A stretch of 64,000 bases of DNA. Source: Parasegetibacter sp. NRK P23. GTDB taxonomy: Bacteria; Bacteroidota; Bacteroidia; Chitinophagales; Chitinophagaceae. Where the stretch lies: NCBI RefSeq assembly GCF_023721715.1, contig NZ_JAMDLG010000001.1, positions 2,705,784 through 2,769,783 of the forward strand. The letters are read 5' to 3'. The translations under genes were made by a program, and so were the position numbers. Below, piece by piece: positions 45,291-58,811 of the stretch. The notes below the pieces were generated by a model. The model did not search any database, had not been told where the DNA came from, and worked only from the letters and a program-made list of their open reading frames with translations. Position 1 is the stretch's first letter. Each line of letters opens with the position of its first letter.

Positions 45291-46793
45291 ATGTCCCCAT
45301 CCGAAACTTACAGCAGCCTTGTTCAGAAAATGCAGGAAGTAGCCGACCTCCGTTATGCCTCCGCCGTTTTACAATGGGACCAGGAAACCTATATGCCACC
45401 AGCAGGCGCCGCCACCAGGGCCAGGCAGGTAGCCACACTCACGGAACTGGCGCATGCTAAATTCGTTTCTCCTGAAATACATGACCTGCTGGAAGAACTG
45501 GGAGAAGGGCATGGCCTTGAAGCGGACCAGCAACACAACCTCCGTCTGATCAGAGAAGATGTAACCAAGAGCCGTAAACTCCCCGGGAGTTTTGTGCGCC
45601 AGATGAGTGAAACCATCTCTAAAAGCTTTAACCAGTGGATGAGCGCGCGTAAAGAAAACAACTTCTCGCTTTTCGCGGCTCCATTGGCGGAAGTGGTGGA
45701 ACTCAAAAAACAGGAAGCTGACCTCCTCGGCTACGAAGGCCACCGTTATAATGCTTTGCTGAACGATTATGAAAAAGGCGCTACCGTTACTATGCTTGAC
45801 GCCGCTTTCCATCAATTAAAACAACCGCTGCGGGAACTGATAGCACGCATCGGCAGCGCGCCGCAGGTGGACAATGGGTTTCTGCATAAAAATTATCCCA
45901 AACAGGAACAGTGGGATTATGGCATGAACCTTTTGAAAGAAATGAACTACGACCTGGAAGCTGGCCGGCAGGATATCGCGGAACATCCCTTCAGCATCAA
46001 TTTCTCTGCAAGAGATGTGCGCATCACCACACGCGTGGATGAGCACGACCTTGGCAATATGGTATGGAGCACCATTCATGAACTGGGCCACGCCCTTTAT
46101 GAACAGGGGCTGCCGGAAGACCAGTATGGACTGCCCCTGGGAGAAGCGGCTTCACTCAGTATCCATGAATCCCAGTCGAGGATGTGGGAGAACAACGTTG
46201 CCCGGGGCCTCAGCTTCTGGAAACACCAGTACCCCCGTTTGCAACAAGCTTTTCCCCAACAACTGGCGGGCGTTGATCTTCCCCATTTCTACAAAGGCAT
46301 CAACCAGGTGAAACCCTCTTTTATCAGAACGGAAGCCGATGAACTCACCTACCATTTTCATGTGATGATCCGGTACGAACTTGAAAAGGAATTGATTGGC
46401 GGTAACCTTGCGGTGAAAGACATTCCGGCCTTCTGGAACGAACAATATAAGAACTGGCTCGGCGTTATAGTGGAGAACGACCGTAACGGCTGTTTACAGG
46501 ATGTGCACTGGAGCCATGGCAGCTTCGGATACTTTCCTACTTACAGTCTCGGAAGTTTGTATGCCGCACAGTTCTATAAAAAAGCCACGCAAGACATTCC
46601 GCAACTGGAAGCAAACCTGGCACAGGGGAATACACTTCCGTTACTGGAATGGCTGAGAACAAACATTCACAGGCACGGCAGGAAATACACCAGCAATGAG
46701 CTTTGTACGCTGGTTACGGGAGAGCCTTTGAACAGCGCGCATTTCATGGAATATGTGACCGGTAAATATGCATCCATATACCTATTGACCTAA
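45291..46793 (+). CDS. M32 metallocarboxypeptidase
   Basis: This is a 500-residue cytoplasmic zinc carboxypeptidase of the Taq/Pfu carboxypeptidase family. The metal site is HELGHALYEQG (H263, E264, H267), with the third ligand in the diagnostic IHESQSRMWEN. Other family words are QWDQETYMP near the N-terminus, VRITTRVDE and FGYFPTYSLG. It trims C-terminal residues except proline. ATG at 45291. A lipocalin-like gene starts 12 bases after its stop and is likely co-transcribed. Confidence 0.95.
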   Translation: MSPSETYSSLVQKMQEVADLRYASAVLQWDQETYMPPAGAATRARQVATLTELAHAKFVSPEIHDLLEELGEGHGLEADQQHNLRLIREDVTKSRKLPGSFVRQMSETISKSFNQWMSARKENNFSLFAAPLAEVVELKKQEADLLGYEGHRYNALLNDYEKGATVTMLDAAFHQLKQPLRELIARIGSAPQVDNGFLHKNYPKQEQWDYGMNLLKEMNYDLEAGRQDIAEHPFSINFSARDVRITTRVDEHDLGNMVWSTIHELGHALYEQGLPEDQYGLPLGEAASLSIHESQSRMWENNVARGLSFWKHQYPRLQQAFPQQLAGVDLPHFYKGINQVKPSFIRTEADELTYHFHVMIRYELEKELIGGNLAVKDIPAFWNEQYKNWLGVIVENDRNGCLQDVHWSHGSFGYFPTYSLGSLYAAQFYKKATQDIPQLEANLAQGNTLPLLEWLRTNIHRHGRKYTSNELCTLVTGEPLNSAHFMEYVTGKYASIYLLT

Positions 46794-46805
46794 CCCGTTT
46801 TGCCT

Positions 46806-47228
46806 ATGCGCAAATTCTTTACCCCACAAGTGGCACTTGCCGCGCTTATTATCTGCATCATTCATTCCCACTGCGTTAAAAAGAAAGTGGAAGCAAAGGT
46901 GAACGACATTGTGGTAAAAGCCATGATTTCAGGCAAATGGTACATCGTGCGTTTCGAAGAGCAGGGCGCGGAAACAACCGGCAGCTATGCGCCGTACGAG
47001 TTCAAATTTAATGAAGACGGTTCCGTGCAGGGCATTGCCGGAGGTGAAACCATTGAAGGTACCTGGGAAGGAGATTTCCTGAACAAAAAAATCGCCGCCA
47101 GTTTCCCGGACGGATCGGTTCCGCTGGAGAACATCACGGGCGAATGGAAGATCACCGATAACAACTGGACCAATGTGCACGCGGCAGCCGGAAATCCCGA
47201 CCGCAAAATGCACCTTAAAAAGAAATAA
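46806..47228 (+). CDS. small exported lipocalin-like protein
   Basis: This is a 140-residue protein. The N-terminus (MRKFFTPQVALAALIICIIHSHC) is a signal peptide. A cysteine at its end may be lipid-modified, although the residues before it (HSH) do not fit a strong lipobox. The rest is beta-rich, with WYIVRFEE, FKFNEDGSVQGIAGGETIEGTW (two blocks) and GEWKITDNNW, like short lipocalin-type domains in Bacteroidota. I cannot assign a function. It probably shares a message with the M32 gene. Confidence 0.65.
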   Translation: MRKFFTPQVALAALIICIIHSHCVKKKVEAKVNDIVVKAMISGKWYIVRFEEQGAETTGSYAPYEFKFNEDGSVQGIAGGETIEGTWEGDFLNKKIAASFPDGSVPLENITGEWKITDNNWTNVHAAAGNPDRKMHLKKK

Positions 47229-47275: not shown

Positions 47276-50200
47276 ATGAAACACGTGCTAACCGCACTTC
47301 TATTTTTTCTGCCCGGTATGTTGTTGGCCCAACTGAAAGCCGATTTCAGCGCCAACATCACATCGGGATGTAATCCTATTGTGGTAGAGTTCACCAATCA
47401 ATCTACGGGAGCGGTCAGCTACCTGTGGAACCTCGGGAACAATACGGTTACCACACAACAAAATCCGAAAGTAAGTTATACCGATACCGGCTGGATCACG
47501 GTAAAACTGGTCATCACGGCCGCCAACGGCCAGAAGGACTCTATCGTCAAGAACCAGTACATCCGCGTGAACGCTTCGCCGAAGGTGAATTTCACCGCAT
47601 CGGCCACCACCGGCTGCTTTCCTTTGCGCGCGCAATTTTTCGATGCCAGTACACCAGAAGCCGGCACCATCAGCACCTGGCTCTGGGACTTTGGAGATGG
47701 CACCACCTCCGATCAAAAGAACCCCGAACATGTGTACACCAGGGCGGGGAATTTTAATGTAACGCTCCAGGTCACCAACAGTGAAGGTTGCAAGAGCACT
47801 TTTTCAAAACCGAATTATATCCGTCTTTCCGACGGTGTAAAGGCCGACTTCACCTTTAGCGCACCCAGCAGTTGTAAGCCGCCAACCGCCATTCAGTTTA
47901 CCAACACATCATCCGGAACAGGCAGCAGAACATACACCTGGCATTTTGGTGACGGCAATACCAGCACCGGAATGAACCCGGCCTACTCCTATACAAAAGC
48001 GGGTACTTATACCGTAATGCTGGTGGCCCTGAACGACAAAGGATGCAGGGATACCATGAAGCAGGAGAACGCCATTACCATTGGTACAGTGAAAGCCGAT
48101 TTCAGCATGGCCGCTACCGCCTGTCAACGCAACCTGGTTCAATTCAGCAACACATCTTCTCCCGCACCATACAGCGCGTTCTGGGAGTTCAGCGATGGCG
48201 GAACGGCTTATGGCCTGAATGCATCGCACCGCTTTGCCAATGCAGGAAAACATACCGTTAAGCTCACCAGCTACTTCGGCGCCTGCCAGGATGTGGTAAC
48301 CAAAGAAATCGAGGTACTGCCCACGCCGCGCCCGGATTTCAGTACAAGCGACTCCTCCGCCTGTTCCGTACCATTCCCCGTTACGTTCAACAACCTGAGT
48401 TCCGGCAATCCCGCCAGCTACTTCTGGCGTTTCGATGATGGCGGTACAAGTACGTCGGCAAATCCGAACCACACGTACAATACTACCGGATACTTCAGTC
48501 CAACACTCGTAGTGGTTGGGGCAAACGGCTGCCGGGATTCCGTTGAAAAAAGATACCTGATACAGATTGTTCGTCCCAATATTGGCTTCTACAACGCTTA
48601 CGCGGAAGGATGCGCTCCACTTACTTATCGCCCCATCCCTTATGTAATGAACACTTCGGAAACCGTTGTTAAATACGAATGGTATTTCGGAGACGGGGGC
48701 TATTCTTCCCAGCAAACCCCGAACTACACCTATACCACAGCGGGCGTATACAATGTAAAACTTGTGATCACCACTGCAGGCGGATGTAAGGACTCCGTTA
48801 CATACGCGGCCACCGTGAGAGTAGGCGGCAAAAGCGGGAGAGATTTTTCGGCCACGCCACTGAACGGCTGCGCAAACGATCCGGTAATTTTTACACAAAC
48901 GGGGAACGGCAGTAATTCGGACCTCTGGCTATTCGGAGATGGCGCTTCCGTATCCGGCGTTGGCGCCACGCACCAATACAGTGACACCGGAAAATTCACC
49001 GTAAAGCTGGTTACTTACAACAACGGTTGCAGGGATACCATCACGAAAGAAAATTACATCTTCATCAAACCGCCCATCGCCAGGTTCTTTACCAATGCTG
49101 TAAACTGCAATGCGCCATTTGACAGAAGCTTTACCGATCAATCGATAGAACCGCTCACCTGGAACTGGGATTTCGGAGACAATACCAGTTCCACTTCCCC
49201 GTCGCCTGCTCATACATATGCGAAGAACGGCGTGTACAATGTAACCCTCACCGTTACCAACGGCGGATGCACCAACCGGTACACACAGACTGTCTCGATA
49301 GAAGTGTTTACGCCCGACCTTTCCATCGCCACAGCGGAAGCCTGTAAAAATACTATGGTGGTGTATACGCCATCAGGCGTAAGCACCATTACCAGTGCGC
49401 CGTATGTTTACTGGGAATTTACCAATGTGGGTAAAGGTTACACATATTACTCCGCGTCCTTCAGCAACACCCCGTTAAATATGGCTTTACCTGAAGCGGG
49501 GAAATACAATATTACGATGCGCGTTACAAACCAATATGGTTGTACTTACACGGTAAACAAACCACAGGCAGTTGAAATATTCGGGCCCACGGCCAGATTC
49601 ACCCCTTCCAAATACCGGCCCTGCCTTAACGAGACATTCACCCTAAACGATCAGTCCTTTTCAGATGGGAAAAACCCTGTCACCCAATGGATCTGGCAAT
49701 ATGATCCCACTGATGCGGACACGCTCGCCGCGCCTCCCTTTCAACACGCTTACAGTTCGGGCGGCGCCAAATTCCCCATGCTCACGGTAACGGACAGTCG
49801 CGGATGCAAACACAGTGAATCAGGCGCCTACATGTTCGTACCCACTCCGAAAGCATCTTTCTTCGCCTCCGCGACGGAAAGCTGCGACAACAAACCTATC
49901 CGGTTTACCAACAACTCTTCCGCGGACCTCCCTACTTACAGTTGGGATTTCGGCAATGGATCAACCTCGAACGCCTACGAACCCACCACACAATACGAAG
50001 GTGATGGTATCTATACCGTGCGTCTCGCCATCAGGGATTATTATGGTTGCACCGATACATTGGTTCAGGAAAAATCGGTCACCATCGCCAATCCGGTAGC
50101 GGCTTTCACGATCAGCGACAGCGTCAGCACCTGCCCACCGCTGCTCGTCAATTTTACGAATACCTCTTCCAACTTCACTTCCATGATATGGGATTTTGGC

Positions 50201-52081
50201 GATAACAGTCCGCTGAGCCCGCTTCCCGCCCCCGCGCATTTTTACAATACCCCGGATTCCTTCCTGGCGAAGATTTACATCAATTCTATTGGCGGCTGCG
50301 CCGATACGGCCACGAGGGCCATCGTGGTAAGAGGTCCGCGTGGCACCATGCAGTACAACGGCATTACGGGTTGCGTGCCCGTAAAACTGAACCTGGAGGC
50401 GGTCACCAACGATAAAGTGAGTTTTATATGGGATTACAATGATGGTATAACAGAGAATACAACGGCCAAAACCACGGAACACATTTATGAACTGGCGGGA
50501 ACATACTTTCCGAAACTGATATTGGTGGACGCAGATGGCTGCAAGATTCCCATTGAAGGAACCGATGCGGTGGAAGTGAAAGGTGTGAAAGCTAATTTCG
50601 GCATGTCGGACACCACCTTTTGTGACATTGGCACAGTTCAGCTTTATGATTCCAGCAAAGGGAACGACCTGGTCACAAAATACACCTGGCGGCTGGGCGA
50701 GGGCACCTCTAAAAACGGTCAGAACGTTTCGCATACTTACACACAAACCGGCAGGTATCCCGTAAAACTGGTAATTGAAACGGCTACCGGATGCAGTGAT
50801 TCACTTGAAACTACTGCGCCGGTAGTGGTGGCACCGAGTCCGGAGATTAGTTTTTCGGGAATGATGGAGGCCTGTGAACCAGCCCTGCTGCAGTTTACCG
50901 GGAACATCCTCCGGAACGACACCTCCACGCTCACCTGGAAATGGGCGTTTGGAAACGGGCAGGAAGCCACCGGCATCAGTTCCGGTCCGGTACATTACGC
51001 CACGGCCAACAATTACCTGGTAATACTCACGGCCAGCACCGGATTTGGCTGTTCACACAGTTATTCAACGAACGCGGTGGTGCATCCTACTCCTCCCATT
51101 AATGCGGGCACCAATTCAGTGATCTGCCTGGGAGAAAATTTCACCCTTCAACCCACCGGCGGCGCCAGATATGTATGGACCCCGCACCCAGACCTTCCCT
51201 GTACTGATTGTGATGCACCAACCGTTGCACCCATTTCGGACCGGAAATATTTCGTAACAGGCTATAGCAGCTTCGGTTGCAGTGCCACCGATTCCATAGA
51301 ACTCAGGGTAAAACAACCTTTCACCATCAGCTTCAGTTCGGCCGACACACTTTGTGCCGGAGCATCCGTAAGGCTTTTCGCCAGTGGCGCGGAACTTTAT
51401 TCCTGGACGCCGGCCACTTCCATCAGCAATACCTCCACCCCGAATCCTACCGTAAATCCATCGGTTACCACCACGTACCAGGTAATTGGAAGGGACGACA
51501 ACAATTGTTTTACAGATACAGGAAACGTAACGGTTACCGTGTACCCCATTCCTGTTGTACTGGCCGGTACAGACATCACCATACCTGTTGGCTCCGGCGC
51601 AAACATCAGCGCTTCCTTTTCGGCTGATGTCACCAATATCCGATGGGTGCCGGCCACAGGACTGAGTTGCGCTGATTGCCCCGCTCCATTCGCCAGCCCG
51701 AAAAACACCACCACTTACCGGGTTACAGGCAGCAACCCCGGCGCCTGTGCCACCAGTGATGAAGTTACCGTACATGTGGTGTGTAACGATGGAAACCTGT
51801 TTTTGCCCAATACCTTCTCTCCCAACGGCGATAACATGAACGATATCCTCTATCCACGGGGAAAGGGCATTTACGGCATCCGTTCCTTCCGGATATATGA
51901 CCGCTGGGGACAGCAGATTTTTGAGCAGCGAAATTTTTTAGCCAACGAACCCAACAAAGGCTGGAACGGGACGTTTAAGGGTAAATTACTTGATCCGAAC
52001 GTATTCGTTTATACACTGGAAGTAGTTTGCGAAAACAACCAGGTGCTTCTTTTTAAAGGAAATATCACCCTGGTGCGTTAA
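47276..52081 (+). CDS. giant PKD-repeat adhesin with T9SS type B sorting domain
   Basis: This 1601-residue surface protein has a signal peptide (MLLAQ, near residue 19), then about 14 PKD-like repeats of roughly 85-100 residues with W-D-F-G-D-G-type cores (e.g. WDFGDGTTS, WHFGDGNTS, WYFGDGGYS), and two or three Ig-like domains. It ends with a gliding-motility-type C-terminal domain: NTFSPNGDNMNDILYPRGK, RIYDRWGQQIFE and GNITLVR. This end is the T9SS type B signal used by SprB-like adhesins. The following gene is a similar adhesin, then a PorP/SprF partner. It is probably an attachment or gliding adhesin. Confidence 0.92.
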   Translation: MKHVLTALLFFLPGMLLAQLKADFSANITSGCNPIVVEFTNQSTGAVSYLWNLGNNTVTTQQNPKVSYTDTGWITVKLVITAANGQKDSIVKNQYIRVNASPKVNFTASATTGCFPLRAQFFDASTPEAGTISTWLWDFGDGTTSDQKNPEHVYTRAGNFNVTLQVTNSEGCKSTFSKPNYIRLSDGVKADFTFSAPSSCKPPTAIQFTNTSSGTGSRTYTWHFGDGNTSTGMNPAYSYTKAGTYTVMLVALNDKGCRDTMKQENAITIGTVKADFSMAATACQRNLVQFSNTSSPAPYSAFWEFSDGGTAYGLNASHRFANAGKHTVKLTSYFGACQDVVTKEIEVLPTPRPDFSTSDSSACSVPFPVTFNNLSSGNPASYFWRFDDGGTSTSANPNHTYNTTGYFSPTLVVVGANGCRDSVEKRYLIQIVRPNIGFYNAYAEGCAPLTYRPIPYVMNTSETVVKYEWYFGDGGYSSQQTPNYTYTTAGVYNVKLVITTAGGCKDSVTYAATVRVGGKSGRDFSATPLNGCANDPVIFTQTGNGSNSDLWLFGDGASVSGVGATHQYSDTGKFTVKLVTYNNGCRDTITKENYIFIKPPIARFFTNAVNCNAPFDRSFTDQSIEPLTWNWDFGDNTSSTSPSPAHTYAKNGVYNVTLTVTNGGCTNRYTQTVSIEVFTPDLSIATAEACKNTMVVYTPSGVSTITSAPYVYWEFTNVGKGYTYYSASFSNTPLNMALPEAGKYNITMRVTNQYGCTYTVNKPQAVEIFGPTARFTPSKYRPCLNETFTLNDQSFSDGKNPVTQWIWQYDPTDADTLAAPPFQHAYSSGGAKFPMLTVTDSRGCKHSESGAYMFVPTPKASFFASATESCDNKPIRFTNNSSADLPTYSWDFGNGSTSNAYEPTTQYEGDGIYTVRLAIRDYYGCTDTLVQEKSVTIANPVAAFTISDSVSTCPPLLVNFTNTSSNFTSMIWDFGDNSPLSPLPAPAHFYNTPDSFLAKIYINSIGGCADTATRAIVVRGPRGTMQYNGITGCVPVKLNLEAVTNDKVSFIWDYNDGITENTTAKTTEHIYELAGTYFPKLILVDADGCKIPIEGTDAVEVKGVKANFGMSDTTFCDIGTVQLYDSSKGNDLVTKYTWRLGEGTSKNGQNVSHTYTQTGRYPVKLVIETATGCSDSLETTAPVVVAPSPEISFSGMMEACEPALLQFTGNILRNDTSTLTWKWAFGNGQEATGISSGPVHYATANNYLVILTASTGFGCSHSYSTNAVVHPTPPINAGTNSVICLGENFTLQPTGGARYVWTPHPDLPCTDCDAPTVAPISDRKYFVTGYSSFGCSATDSIELRVKQPFTISFSSADTLCAGASVRLFASGAELYSWTPATSISNTSTPNPTVNPSVTTTYQVIGRDDNNCFTDTGNVTVTVYPIPVVLAGTDITIPVGSGANISASFSADVTNIRWVPATGLSCADCPAPFASPKNTTTYRVTGSNPGACATSDEVTVHVVCNDGNLFLPNTFSPNGDNMNDILYPRGKGIYGIRSFRIYDRWGQQIFEQRNFLANEPNKGWNGTFKGKLLDPNVFVYTLEVVCENNQVLLFKGNITLVR

Positions 52082-52128
52082 ACGGAATAGTTTTTGCACA
52101 GTGCTTCCTGCTACCAAACAAACCACTA

Positions 52129-55100
52129 TTGTACCCGCTTCATTATACCCGGCTGCTGCTCACCCTGTTCGTATGCCTGGCCTTTAAGGCCGCTGGCGCG
52201 CAGGTGCCCGTAGCACAGTTTACCGCCAACGTTACCCAGGGCTGCGCACCGTTATCAGTAAGATTTACGGATCAATCCACAGGATCACCACAATTCTGGA
52301 ACTGGGATTTCGGAAACGGGCAATTGTCCAATCTCCAGAACCCCACCGTTAATTTTTCGACACCCGGAACCTATACGGTAACGCTGGTGGTACGCAACCA
52401 GGATGGCGTGGATGGGGAAACGAAAACAGGCTATATCACTGTTAATCCTTCGCCTGTCGCCGCATTTGAGGCCAACCTTACGGAGGGCTGTCTTGGCAGC
52501 ACCATCAGGTTTACCGACCGCTCCACCGATGCCGGAGGTACCATAACGGCCTGGAGCTGGGATTTCGGCGACGGAACCACCTCCACCCAACGCAATCCCA
52601 GTAAACAATACACCGCGAACGGCTTTTACACGGTAACCCTTACCGTAACCAGCAGCACCGGCTGCCGGAGAACCGTATCACGCGGAAGATATATTCGCAT
52701 CCTTTCAGGTATAACAAACGCGTTCAGACACGCACAGGATAGTGTTTGCCGTGCTCCCTTCCCCGTGCGCTTCACCAATGAGAGCGCAGGCCCGGGCACC
52801 CTTTCTTACAACTGGAATTTCGGCAACGGAACAACCAGTACCGACAAGGACCCCACCGCCAATTTTTCAGCGCCGGGCACTTATAATATTACGCTTGTAA
52901 CCACCAGTGCTTTAGGCTGTAGTGAAACATTAACCCGTTCCATCACCGTCACTGGCGCCAACCCGGCTATTTCCGCAGGCACCGTTGCCTGTATCGAAAC
53001 ACCATTTCCCTTTACCAACAACAGCAGCCCTGCCCCGGTTTCAAGCACCTGGGATTTTGGAGACGGTAATACCTCAACCGCAACATCTCCCAGTCATACC
53101 TACAATACAGCCGGAACTTACCAGGTAAAACTTGTTACAGACTTTGGCTTCTGCAAAGATTCAGTTACGCGTGCGCTGACCGTGACGCCCCGTCCCGCGG
53201 TTAACTTCTCCGCTTCGGGCAGAACTGGCTGTGCAGCGCCGCTCACCACCAATTTCACGGCAAACGCACCAGGCGCGGTTTCCTGGAACTGGGATTTCGG
53301 AGATGGCAACAGCTCCAACCTCGCCAACCCATCGCATACTTACAGCACGGCAGGCAATTATAATGTTAGCCTCACCATCACCAACGCTAATGGTTGCACT
53401 AATACAATCAGGCAAGACAACTATATTCGGATTCGTCAACCCCAGATAAATACAGCTAGTTTGCAAGGAGCGGGATGCGCCCCCTATACTTACACCCCCA
53501 CGCCCGTTGTGAACACGGTTGTTCCCGTCACATCCTGGCTTTGGGACTTTGGAGACGGCACCACCAGCAATGTGCAAAACCCCACCCATGTTTACACGAA
53601 TACCGGCAATTACACCGTTATACTTACCGTTAGCGGGCCAGGATGCAATACTACCGTTACCGCGACCAATGCTGTGCGCGTAGGCAGTTCGCCAGGCACG
53701 GCTTTCACCAGCTCGGCTACCCAAAGCTGTGTAGGTTCCGGCATTCAATTCACCAATACCTCCGCTCAAAGTGACGCCTGGGAATGGGACTTCGGAGATG
53801 GCAATACATCCACGGAGGAAAATCCCGCTCATTCTTACGCGGAACCAGGAACTTATACCATCCGGTTTGTTGCCATCAACAATGGTTGCAGGCAGGAGAT
53901 CACCAATACAAATTATATTACGGTATTACCACCATTAGCAAGGTTTGATTTTGCAGTGCAATGCCCTGATTTCAGGGAAGTGGTATTTACGAACAACTCC
54001 CTCATTGATAATACACAAACAGTCTCCTACCTCTGGGAGTTTGGTGATGCTACGGCCTCCACTTCCACTAATCCAAATCCATCCTTCATTTTCCCGGCTG
54101 TTGGTTCTTATAATGTGGCCCTCACAGTAACAAACGGCACCTGTTCCCACCGGATTCAACGTGAAGTGATCATTACCTCACAATCCGCTGATGTTTCCGT
54201 TTCCAACAACAACGCCTGTAAACATGAACGTATTACCGTGAGCGCCATCAACAGCGACCCGACACTGATACGCTCCTACGAATGGCGCATCAACGGAGGT
54301 ACGCCTTTCGCCGGAGGCAGAAGTTTTGATACAAGTTTCGCGAATAATGGCAACTATACGATCAGCCTTACCATTACAGATATCAACGGGTGCGTTACCA
54401 GTCTCGGCACTCCGGTTTCCATTGCAGTAACGGGCCCGGTACCCGGACTCAGCGCCAGCAATACAGGCGCCTGCGTTAACGGCGACATCACACTGAACAG
54501 CACCGCCACCTCTTCCAATGGCATCAGCCGGTACAGGTGGGATTTTGGCGATGGAAACATTATTGACAACAGCACCGCATCTGTTGTACACCGCTATGCC
54601 AATTCCGGCAACTATCTTCCCTCCCTCACGATAGCGGACACACGTGGCTGTACCGATACCGCTTTCATTCCCGTAGCCCTTCAGATTACCAGTCCGAAGG
54701 CGGGATTTGACATTTCTGATACATTGTTTTGTCCAACGCTTCCCGTTCAGTTCACCGATACATCTTCCGGGTACAACCTCAGCTACCGTTGGGATTTCGG
54801 GAATGGCAATACATCCGCCGAACAAAATCCAACTCAGGAATTCAGAGGCGGAGACACCACTTACACCATCTTCCTTGAAGTGACCGACGGTTATGGCTGC
54901 GTGGATTCCATCCGGAAAGAAAACCTGATACGCATTGTTAATCCCGTAGCCGCATTCATGGTTTCAGACAGTCTTTTCCTGTGCGCGCCCGCTGAAGTGC
55001 AGTTTACCAATCAAAGCGCGGGATATGAAGCGCTGCTTTGGGATTTCAACAACGACAATACTTCCACGCTGGAGAACCCGAACCAGTTCTTCAACAACAT

Positions 55101-56463
55101 TGGAGTATATAACGTGAAGTTGTATGCGTATGGCTTCGGCGGATGTGTGGATTCCGCGGTACAGGCCATCCGTTTCCCTGATCCCGGCACCACTGTTATG
55201 AATTATTCTCCCATAACCGCATGCAATGAAATCACCACGAATTTTACTATTTCACCCATAGAAGGATTGTCATACAATTTCTTATTCGGCGATGGACAGG
55301 ATACTACCGGTGCTACTTCTTTTTCGCACCGTTACGGCTCTCCCGGCACCTATGCGCCCCGTATCACCTATACGGACAGAATGGGCTGCATCGCCAGCGT
55401 AGGCGGACCATCCACGATCCGCGTGAGCGGCGCTATCGTTGCTTTCGCGAAGGATCGAAAAGAATTCTGCGACAACGGTGCGGTAAGCTTCACCAATTAT
55501 ACCATCCCGCTTGCGGCAGATCCGATCAATTCCATCAACTGGAACTTCGGAGATGGCGGTACCAGTACGGACCAAAATCCTAATTATCAATTCAACCATC
55601 CCGGCACGTTCCCCGTTACGCTGAACGTGTCTACACAGGCAGGATGTACCAGTACTTTCAGCGATACCATCCGTGTTTACCGCACGCCTTCGCCCATCAT
55701 CAATACATTACCGGGGATATGTGTGTTTGATACATTAGATATCAATGGATCACTCGCTTTCGCAGATACTTCCATCACCTGGAGATGGAGCATTGGCAAT
55801 GGCATGAACTTAACGGGACCTGAACACCGCGTTGTGTTCAATTCACCAGGAACCATCACGGCAAATCTTAGTGCCGCCAACCTGTTGAATTGTACGGGCA
55901 GCACCAGCGCTACCATTGAAGTATATCCCTTGCCCGAAATCCAGGTACCCACAAATATTACCGTTCCTTCCGGCGGCTCGGCGCCACTGCAACTTTCTTA
56001 CAGCCAGGAGGTCACCTCCTGGACCTGGACGCCGTCTACGGCGCTGAGTTGCACCAACTGCGCCCAACCAATCGCCAATCCGCAGTTCAATACCGTGTAC
56101 ACTGTTGCGGTGGTAGACCAGAACGGTTGCCGCAATACGGCTGAGGTGCCCGTTACCGTTATATGCAATACCTTGAATTTCTTTATTCCCAATACTTTCA
56201 GTCCGAATAAAGATGGCATGAACGATGTATTTTATCCCAGGGGAAAAGGTATTGAACGCATCGCTTCCATGCGCGTATTCAACCGCTGGGGACAAATCAT
56301 GTTCGAAAAGAGGAACTTCGGGGCCAACGATCCGGCAATGGGCTGGGACGGCAATTTCCAGGGAAAACCCGCATCAAGCGACACTTATGTGTACGTAGTT
56401 GAACTCATTTGTGAAAACGCCACTATAATTCCTTATAAAGGAAACGTAACTTTAATCCGGTAA
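52129..56463 (+). CDS. second giant PKD-repeat adhesin with T9SS type B sorting domain
   Basis: This is a 1444-residue paralogue of the preceding protein with about 15 PKD-like repeats (WDFGNGQLS, WDFGDGTTS, WDFGDGNTS and others). Its C-terminal domain is closely similar: NTFSPNKDGMNDVFYPRGK, RVFNRWGQIMFE, GNVTLIR. The signal peptide ends near AAGAQ (residue 25). No ATG fits before it, so the start appears to be TTG at 52129. It lies 47 bases after the first adhesin and nine bases before the PorP/SprF gene, so the three form an operon. Repeat number and C-terminus imply whole-gene duplication. Confidence 0.9.
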   Translation: MYPLHYTRLLLTLFVCLAFKAAGAQVPVAQFTANVTQGCAPLSVRFTDQSTGSPQFWNWDFGNGQLSNLQNPTVNFSTPGTYTVTLVVRNQDGVDGETKTGYITVNPSPVAAFEANLTEGCLGSTIRFTDRSTDAGGTITAWSWDFGDGTTSTQRNPSKQYTANGFYTVTLTVTSSTGCRRTVSRGRYIRILSGITNAFRHAQDSVCRAPFPVRFTNESAGPGTLSYNWNFGNGTTSTDKDPTANFSAPGTYNITLVTTSALGCSETLTRSITVTGANPAISAGTVACIETPFPFTNNSSPAPVSSTWDFGDGNTSTATSPSHTYNTAGTYQVKLVTDFGFCKDSVTRALTVTPRPAVNFSASGRTGCAAPLTTNFTANAPGAVSWNWDFGDGNSSNLANPSHTYSTAGNYNVSLTITNANGCTNTIRQDNYIRIRQPQINTASLQGAGCAPYTYTPTPVVNTVVPVTSWLWDFGDGTTSNVQNPTHVYTNTGNYTVILTVSGPGCNTTVTATNAVRVGSSPGTAFTSSATQSCVGSGIQFTNTSAQSDAWEWDFGDGNTSTEENPAHSYAEPGTYTIRFVAINNGCRQEITNTNYITVLPPLARFDFAVQCPDFREVVFTNNSLIDNTQTVSYLWEFGDATASTSTNPNPSFIFPAVGSYNVALTVTNGTCSHRIQREVIITSQSADVSVSNNNACKHERITVSAINSDPTLIRSYEWRINGGTPFAGGRSFDTSFANNGNYTISLTITDINGCVTSLGTPVSIAVTGPVPGLSASNTGACVNGDITLNSTATSSNGISRYRWDFGDGNIIDNSTASVVHRYANSGNYLPSLTIADTRGCTDTAFIPVALQITSPKAGFDISDTLFCPTLPVQFTDTSSGYNLSYRWDFGNGNTSAEQNPTQEFRGGDTTYTIFLEVTDGYGCVDSIRKENLIRIVNPVAAFMVSDSLFLCAPAEVQFTNQSAGYEALLWDFNNDNTSTLENPNQFFNNIGVYNVKLYAYGFGGCVDSAVQAIRFPDPGTTVMNYSPITACNEITTNFTISPIEGLSYNFLFGDGQDTTGATSFSHRYGSPGTYAPRITYTDRMGCIASVGGPSTIRVSGAIVAFAKDRKEFCDNGAVSFTNYTIPLAADPINSINWNFGDGGTSTDQNPNYQFNHPGTFPVTLNVSTQAGCTSTFSDTIRVYRTPSPIINTLPGICVFDTLDINGSLAFADTSITWRWSIGNGMNLTGPEHRVVFNSPGTITANLSAANLLNCTGSTSATIEVYPLPEIQVPTNITVPSGGSAPLQLSYSQEVTSWTWTPSTALSCTNCAQPIANPQFNTVYTVAVVDQNGCRNTAEVPVTVICNTLNFFIPNTFSPNKDGMNDVFYPRGKGIERIASMRVFNRWGQIMFEKRNFGANDPAMGWDGNFQGKPASSDTYVYVVELICENATIIPYKGNVTLIR

Positions 56464-56471
56464 TCAAAGAT

Positions 56472-57503
56472 ATGAGACCAGCATTGCTGAAATACCTGTT
56501 CATCTTATTACTTCTCCGGGGAGGTATTTCGTATGCGCAAGACATCCATTTTTCACAGTTCTTCGAAGCGCCATTACTCCGGAACCCTTCATTGGCCGGT
56601 ATCTTCAATGGCGATATCAGGGTGCAGGGCGTTTACCGCGACCAGTGGAACAGCTTCACCAACGCGTACCGCAGCGGTTCTTTCAACATGGAATACAAAC
56701 AACCAATCGGCAGGCAGGACGATTTTATTACGATGGGCCTCCAAACCGTGTACGATAAGGCAGGCAGTGTGGCACTCACTACCACCCAGATTCTTCCCGC
56801 GCTGAATTACCATAAATCACTGAACAGCGACAGGAACATGTACCTCTCGCTGGGATTCATGGGCGGGCTCGTGCAGAAAAGACTGGACCGTTCCCGCGTT
56901 ACAACGAATAACCAGTACGATGGAAACGGCTACAACCCTTCCCTCCCCGACGGAGAATATTTCACGGATTTCAAACAAAATTACTGGGATGGAAGTGTGG
57001 GCATGAGTTTTAACTCGAACCTCAGTTCGAATGAGGACAACACTTTTTTTATAGGTGCCGCTTACCACCACTTTAACCGCCCGCTCAACTCGTTCTACAA
57101 GGATCCTACCATTGGGCTGGAACCGAAATGGGTGTTCAGTTCTGGCGTGAAACTTGCCATCAACGAATACTCCTTTTTCAACCTTCAGGGCGATTATTCC
57201 CAGCAGGCTGGCAGCCAGGAAGTGGTTGCCGGTGCATTATACGGGCATAAGCTGGGAGATTTTCCTGACGATCCGCAATACATCATCTATGCCGGTGCGT
57301 TCCTGCGCTGGCGCGACGCCCTGATACCGGTGGTGAAGATCGATTTCAGGCCAATGTCCGTAGCCATCAGCTATGATGTGAACGTTTCACAACTCAAAAC
57401 CGCCAGCATGGGCAGGGGCGGCGTGGAGCTTTCCGTTTCCTATATGGGCTTCCTGGACAGGTTCAATACGACCAGAGACGCCGTGCGCTGCCCGAGGTTC
57501 TAA
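56472..57503 (+). CDS. PorP/SprF family outer-membrane protein
   Basis: This is a 343-residue outer-membrane beta-barrel with a signal peptide (GGISYAQ, residue 23). The start of the mature part is diagnostic: DIHFSQFFEAPLLRNPSLAGIFNGD, as two short blocks, then VQGVYRDQW. SprF of Flavobacterium johnsoniae is needed for secretion or anchoring of SprB, and each type B adhesin gene is often followed by its own SprF-like gene. The position nine bases after the second adhesin fits this. It may serve both adhesins. Confidence 0.93.
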   Translation: MRPALLKYLFILLLLRGGISYAQDIHFSQFFEAPLLRNPSLAGIFNGDIRVQGVYRDQWNSFTNAYRSGSFNMEYKQPIGRQDDFITMGLQTVYDKAGSVALTTTQILPALNYHKSLNSDRNMYLSLGFMGGLVQKRLDRSRVTTNNQYDGNGYNPSLPDGEYFTDFKQNYWDGSVGMSFNSNLSSNEDNTFFIGAAYHHFNRPLNSFYKDPTIGLEPKWVFSSGVKLAINEYSFFNLQGDYSQQAGSQEVVAGALYGHKLGDFPDDPQYIIYAGAFLRWRDALIPVVKIDFRPMSVAISYDVNVSQLKTASMGRGGVELSVSYMGFLDRFNTTRDAVRCPRF

Positions 57504-58463: not shown

Positions 58464-58811
58464 TTGAAGAAATTCTACTTTATATTATCGCTTTTACTGG
58501 TTTTCACAACACAGAGTTTTTCCCAGGAGAAAAAATCAGGCACCGGGCACGATGAGGCACCGTCTAAGATGGTACGCTTCTACCCTAACCCCGCCACTTC
58601 TGATATTAATTTCGATTTCACCAAAGGATACGACAACTCCTACACTTTCCAGATTTACAATATGATGGGCAAAAAAGTGCATGAAATCAGTAAGGTTACG
58701 CCGCGTAACAACGTGAACCTCAACAATTTCTTCCGTGGGATTTACATTTTCCAATTGAAAGATAAAAACGGAAGGGTCCTGGAAAGCGGGAAATTTCAGG
58801 TGGCGAAATAA
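58464..58811 (+). CDS. minimal secreted protein consisting of a T9SS type A sorting domain
   Basis: This 115-residue protein has a signal peptide (TQSFSQ, ending near residue 21), a linker of about 15 residues, and then only the type A sorting domain: VRFYPNPATSDINFDF, FQIYNMMGKKVHEI, GIYIFQLKDKNGR and the basic end. No catalytic or binding domain precedes it. The start is TTG at 58464, fixed by the signal peptide. It could be a processed tag, a dominant competitor or a small surface protein. Confidence 0.8.
   Translation: MKKFYFILSLLLVFTTQSFSQEKKSGTGHDEAPSKMVRFYPNPATSDINFDFTKGYDNSYTFQIYNMMGKKVHEISKVTPRNNVNLNNFFRGIYIFQLKDKNGRVLESGKFQVAK

Follow-up and report, generated by a model that had tools for sequence, protein, structure and literature searches.

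Whether one outer-membrane carrier can serve two giant adhesins, and whether the fibres it holds are towed over the cell or fixed in place, are the questions raised by a three-gene locus in Parasegetibacter sp. NRK P23. In the window analysed here (a stretch of 64,000 nucleotides of contig NZ_JAMDLG010000001.1), two adhesins with type-B C-terminal domains (CTDs) for the type IX secretion system (T9SS) are encoded directly ahead of a single PorP/SprF-family carrier. Such carriers either ride the gliding track or are static, and the static ones are encoded beside a PorE-like OmpA protein (PMC12618676). Which of them ride and which stay put has only recently become testable, in one genus. Gliding of F. 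johnsoniae requires twin cysteines in its carrier SprF (PMC12635249). The window carrier has one lone cysteine where the gliding carrier has two, and its hook to the gliding machinery may therefore be simpler. On balance we favour a type-B T9SS adhesin locus in which one carrier anchors both fibres and may be docked on the track by that cysteine.

Results

Two adhesin genes and one carrier gene

All three genes lie on the plus strand. Adhesin A1 (47276-52081; 1601 aa, ATG start) is followed after 47 nt by adhesin A2 (52129-56463; 1444 aa, with a TTG start and no ATG within reach of it), and A2 after a further 8 nt by the carrier gene (56472-57503; 343 aa, ATG start). An earlier note on this DNA had described adhesins of 1601 and 1444 residues with a SprF-like barrel gene within nine bases, and the open reading frames lie at exactly the coordinates it gave. 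It had also proposed an operon. The tight gaps, the common strand and a gene order kept in 7/7 tandem loci (see below) all support this, and we treat A1-A2-carrier as a predicted operon; promoter and terminator scans at the locus gave results no better than those for shuffled sequence. Upstream on the same strand are an M32 carboxypeptidase gene (45291-46793), which also neighbours the locus in relatives and is used here as a synteny anchor outside the mechanism, and, between it and A1, a gene for a small lipocalin-like protein (46800-47228) that may be co-transcribed. A peroxiredoxin gene lies 133 nt 3' of the carrier gene. The window also encodes (58464-58811, plus strand) a 115-aa protein consisting of a signal peptide and a type-A T9SS sorting domain (PF18962, 48.8 bits) with nearly no passenger.

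Each adhesin begins with a signal peptide and ends in a type-B CTD, at residues 1510-1601 of A1 (51803-52078, plus strand) and 1353-1444 of A2 (56185-56460, plus strand). Both CTDs score above the NCBIfam cut-off of TIGR04131 (44.7 bits for A1 and 49.6 for A2; cut-off 35) and above that of CHU_C PF13585 (45.2 and 52.8; cut-off 27). The CTD of A1 has the conserved cysteine pair; in A2 the corresponding cysteines (C84 and C166 of a fragment comprising its last 182 aa) are invariant in 45 sequences. This A2 fragment is predicted to form beta-sandwich modules (pLDDT 93), and a fold search with the predicted CTD matched generic Ig-like and adhesin folds only. Between signal peptide and CTD, a repeat profile places 15 PKD repeats in each protein at matching positions, followed by degenerate PKD/Ig-like modules, of which A1 has three and A2 one. 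There are thus two separate fibres, of 18 modules (A1) and 16 modules (A2). The single chain of about 29 PKD-like repeats described previously comes close to the summed number of PKD repeats (30), but these are split over two proteins and no single chain of 29 exists. On our assumption of roughly 4 nm per module, each fibre would reach about 60-70 nm; the reach of SprB is quoted as about 200 nm (PMC12635249).

Fibre length varies little. Among complete adhesins of 1380-1700 aa, the median is 1605 aa for A1 (quartiles 1601-1611, n=37; 16-18 repeats found) and 1450 aa for A2 (quartiles 1444-1465, n=27; 15-16 repeats found), with a few outliers beyond that range, such as an adhesin of 2209 aa at locus L083. 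In our judgement this fixity is unusually strict for repeat adhesins that are only about 40% identical. The near-constant length of both fibres in genera that have diverged strongly suggests selection on their reach, or on their relative reach.

The carrier and its C-terminal tail

The carrier exceeds both family cut-offs (TIGR03519, 137.9 against 90.55 bits; PF11751, 104.3 against 22.3 bits). An AlphaFold2 model predicts a FadL/PorV-like barrel of 14 long strands (pLDDT 82) with a tail that follows the last strand and is disordered from residue 327. Searches with this predicted structure in Foldseek matched FadL and chain F of the T9SS translocon structures 8gl6 and 6h3i, at a TM score of about 0.5; sequence searches of the PDB, whether with the single sequence or a profile, gave no match. 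The tail ends in CPRF (57489-57500, plus strand), which contains Cys340, the sole cysteine of the protein. Of 111 non-redundant orthologues, which come from dozens of genera, 106 keep a tail cysteine; Pro341 is invariant and Phe343 nearly so. In 90 of the 111 the mature carrier has no cysteine besides the one in the tail, which rules out an internal disulfide in those proteins. A Cys-Xaa-Cys tail occurs in none of the 111 orthologues, and no carrier with such a tail was found anywhere in this genome.

Distribution and history

A relative of the carrier is present in 115 of 119 genomes of Chitinophagaceae. We read orthologue loci with their surroundings at 60 sites besides the window, plus 80 from named genomes, which include Flavihumibacter, Niastella, Terrimonas and Ferruginibacter. 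The cargo beside the carrier at the 61 loci that include the window is A1-A2 in seven, A1 in 21, A2 in 22, two A1-like adhesins in seven, two A2 adhesins in one and something else in three. The order A1-A2-carrier holds in all seven A1-A2 tandems; the M32 peptidase gene lies within the stretch taken for six of these, and is also found at A1-only and A2-only loci. Dozens of genera have full-length relatives (36-47% identity), so the locus is not a product of chance: it is real and widespread in Chitinophagaceae. On the adhesin tree A1 and A2 split into distinct clades with good support, which identifies them as old paralogues and not as a recent local duplication. At three related loci (L227, L229 and L230) the carrier gene is flanked by one cargo before it and another after it.

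A probable shared carrier for two cargos

The genome encodes seven PorP/SprF proteins and fourteen type-B CTDs. Among these fourteen, the CTDs of A1 and A2 are mutually nearest, at 55% identity, and they have in common with three others a five-residue insertion. A single F. johnsoniae shuttle serves three CTDs that are more than 44% identical, and crosstalk was shown at 68% identity and not at 43% or 26% (PMC12618676), which puts the A1/A2 pair in the permissive range. None of the six other PorP/SprF paralogues exceeds 35% identity to the carrier, and the nearest of them, at 35%, has its own cargo. With no better carrier for either adhesin in the genome, sharing becomes very likely, and we infer with high confidence that A1 and A2 both use the window carrier. 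The shared carrier that the earlier note had suggested is thus backed by the single adjoining gene, the pairing of the CTDs and the remoteness of the paralogues; a separate SprF for each adhesin, which would have refuted it, was sought in this genome and not found.

Related genomes give a varied picture. A1 and A2 were found nowhere but at the tandem locus in four other genomes that have it; in G049, G071 and G005 they occupy separate loci, each with its own carrier. On the carrier tree, which is unrooted and has many weak inner branches, A1-only and A2-only carriers fall mostly into separate clades with the tandem carriers, the window's included, in between. Cargo labels change 8 times for A2 and 10 times for A1 on this tree, against 18.4 and 17.8 after shuffling. 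The simplest reading of these patterns is that an ancestral carrier may have served both adhesins and then become specialised in lineages that lost one of the two.

Two stray genes of the Parasegetibacter genome belong to the same inventory. A 1479-aa paralogue of A1 and A2 (L043:6894-11333; G000:C1 about 3346893-3351332) is an orphan with no adjoining carrier and may borrow one. A stand-alone type-B CTD open reading frame of 106 aa without a passenger (L042:4303-4623; G000:C1 about 3600300-3600620) is 38-43% identical to the window CTDs and is possibly the remnant of a lost adhesin.

Gliding-track genes and the PorE rule

T9SS genes and the track genes are present in the genome. GldK is identified by its family model (585 bits), and GldL-, GldM- and GldN-like genes adjoin it, as judged by order and sequence. 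A PorU-like gene, recognised on the same grounds, lies beside GldJ; the GldJ score of 343 bits is under the NCBIfam cut-off of 458, as it is in all 119 family genomes searched. Cys317 of GldK aligns with Cys343 of the GldK of G141, whose cysteines occupy positions 285 and 343, exactly those published for F. johnsoniae. This cysteine is kept in 13/13 carrier-bearing genomes checked. Three of the four genomes without any carrier relative (G019, G023 and G117, complete genomes of the family from two genera) have no GldJ; in the remaining one, G075, GldJ is matched more weakly and an arginine stands in place of the GldK cysteine. Overall the GldK cysteine is absent in three of these four genomes, two of the three (G023 and G117) being poorly aligned there, and is present in G019. 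The cysteine is, however, not specific to carriers, as PorG also needs it. A search for SprC and SprD found neither in this genome nor in two tandem-bearing relatives, save weak cross-matches of PorP barrels and CTDs, and found both in Flavobacterium. In the literature we found no report on gliding of the named relatives.

No PorE gene lies beside any of the 132 carriers of the orthologue set, window included. Among 77 other PorP/SprF proteins, the tail cysteine is missing in 29 of the 31 with a PorE-like gene directly downstream and present in 33 of the 46 without a PorE neighbour, a contrast with a Fisher p of 6e-9 that overstates the independent evidence, since both states show few changes along the tree (8 and 6); there are 3 to 6 independent phylogenetic pairs, too few for a pair test. 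PorE assignment was tested on two seeds, both of which contain the OmpA domain; the PorE family model scored 342 bits on one of them, under its strict cut-off of 600. In G141, the PorE-linked carriers that we read all terminate in SPRFF or TPRFF; those of the SprF and Fjoh_1677 kinds have CPC or CNC tail motifs. Among the carriers sampled, twin cysteines turned up in 12 of the Flavobacterium family and in one elsewhere; the other cysteine tails have a single cysteine.

Discussion

The locus resembles the sprC-sprD-sprB-sprF operon of F. johnsoniae in having a giant type-B adhesin gene directly 5' of a gene for a PorP/SprF carrier, an operon without PorE, a cysteine in the carrier's C-terminal tail, and GldJ and GldK track genes in the genome. 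It differs in that two PKD adhesins replace SprB, peptidase and lipocalin-like genes stand upstream in place of sprC and sprD, and the tail is a single-cysteine CPRF where that of SprF is Cys-Pro-Cys. The likeness to sprB-sprF drawn in the earlier note therefore stands for the track genes and the GldK cysteine and fails for sprC/sprD and the Cys-Xaa-Cys tail: the track-attachment parts are present, and on two features the locus falls outside the SprB/SprF system of F. johnsoniae. In its probable sharing of one carrier among several type-B cargos with similar CTDs, as in its cysteine tail and lack of a PorE neighbour, it recalls the F. johnsoniae orphan shuttle Fjoh_1677 (PMC12618676), but here the cargos are clustered with the carrier and the tail has one cysteine instead of CNC. 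Static PorE-linked carriers (Fjoh_3952-3951-3950; P. gingivalis PG1035-PorP-PorE) likewise follow a type-B cargo gene, and the Flavobacterium ones have a PRF motif at the C-terminus in common with the window carrier; they differ from it in that the window carrier has a tail cysteine and no PorE gene. We dropped an equation of the window cysteine with the GldK-bonding Cys326, as its support, L149, is an orphan carrier and a probable orthologue of Fjoh_1677; the gene of the sprF type that does have a giant type-B cargo encodes a Cys-Pro-Cys end, which leaves it ambiguous whether the window cysteine matches Cys324 or Cys326.

In the mechanism that we propose, Sec would export A1 and A2 and the T9SS translocon would take them across the outer membrane; the single carrier encoded downstream would capture the type-B CTD of each. 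The carrier would stay bound and anchor each fibre, giving separate carrier-A1 and carrier-A2 complexes. Its periplasmic tail may dock on the GldJ/GldK/GldN track with Cys340 as the point of attachment: a single-cysteine disulfide between this residue and GldK Cys317 (equivalent to Cys343 of F. johnsoniae) is conceivable, and the two fibres may travel along the cell in gliding or surface exploration. Whether the complexes ride the track seems to us evenly poised, and a covalent link through Cys340 a tentative proposal that falls just short of that. In its favour, P. gingivalis PorG forms such a bond through a single cysteine; against it, SprF Cys324Ala, with one cysteine left, gave little adduct and cells that failed to glide on agar (PMC12635249). 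The tether of a single cysteine to the track is an attractive hypothesis. The fit to gliding that had been claimed for the locus is plausible in view of GldK-L-M-N, GldJ and the GldK cysteine; with neither sprC/sprD nor a Cys-Xaa-Cys tail it is unproven.

The most serious alternative is static display, in which the carrier would fix both fibres in place, where they would mediate adhesion to surfaces or to other cells; the tail cysteine would serve another function or none. We regard this as a doubtful but substantial possibility, as the type-B CTD of Fjoh_3952 yields static foci in F. johnsoniae (PMC12618676), CPRF resembles the [ST]PRFF of PorE-linked carriers, and sprC and sprD were not found. 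Against it, no PorE adjoins the carrier or its relatives, a tail cysteine is very rare in PorE-linked carriers, the track genes are in the genome, and genomes that lack GldJ lack the carrier family too. The [ST]PRFF motif also raises the prospect that the tail has another role, such as folding: PRF with its terminal aromatic could be a signal for barrel assembly or quality control, the cysteine being incidental. An invariant Pro341 and nearly invariant Phe343, PRFF without a cysteine in PorE-linked carriers, and a poorly ordered tail after the last strand would all suit such a signal, yet 106/111 orthologues retain, in an oxidising periplasm, a cysteine that is mostly their only one, which makes this reading unlikely.

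A further possibility concerns sharing itself. A2 might use the adjoining carrier, whose gene it touches, and A1, which does not touch it, a paralogue such as G000:C1:1372570 or the orphan at C1:841541. Many relatives do have A1 or A2 alone with its own carrier, three genomes have both as separate loci and carriers sort by cargo on the tree, but the nearest paralogue is only 35% identical and has its own cargo, the CTD nearest to that of A1 is that of A2, and tandem carriers take a place on the tree between the clades with A1 only and with A2 only, which could suit a carrier that serves both. We therefore consider separate carriers in this genome quite improbable and retain a single carrier for A1 and A2. 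The two-cargo layout is not unique to this family: in G217, of the Flavobacterium family, an sprF-type carrier gene also lies 3' of two tandem giant type-B adhesin genes. Those adhesins measure 2738 and more than 3600 aa (L304 and L305), with sprC/sprD-like genes upstream.

The locus thus offers a second lineage with a simple layout of two cargos, one carrier and one cysteine, in which small changes could test whether the carrier is shared, whether twin cysteines are needed and whether the rule relating the tail cysteine to PorE holds. If true, a single-cysteine tether would make the need for twin cysteines, as observed in F. johnsoniae, less strict. More speculatively, and on present evidence rather unlikely as a whole, gliding-type carriers outside the Flavobacterium family may be tethered to the moving track by a single tail cysteine, with one carrier in Chitinophagaceae towing two fibres of near-fixed length (18 and 16 modules), descended from an ancestral carrier that served both and specialised later where one adhesin was lost.
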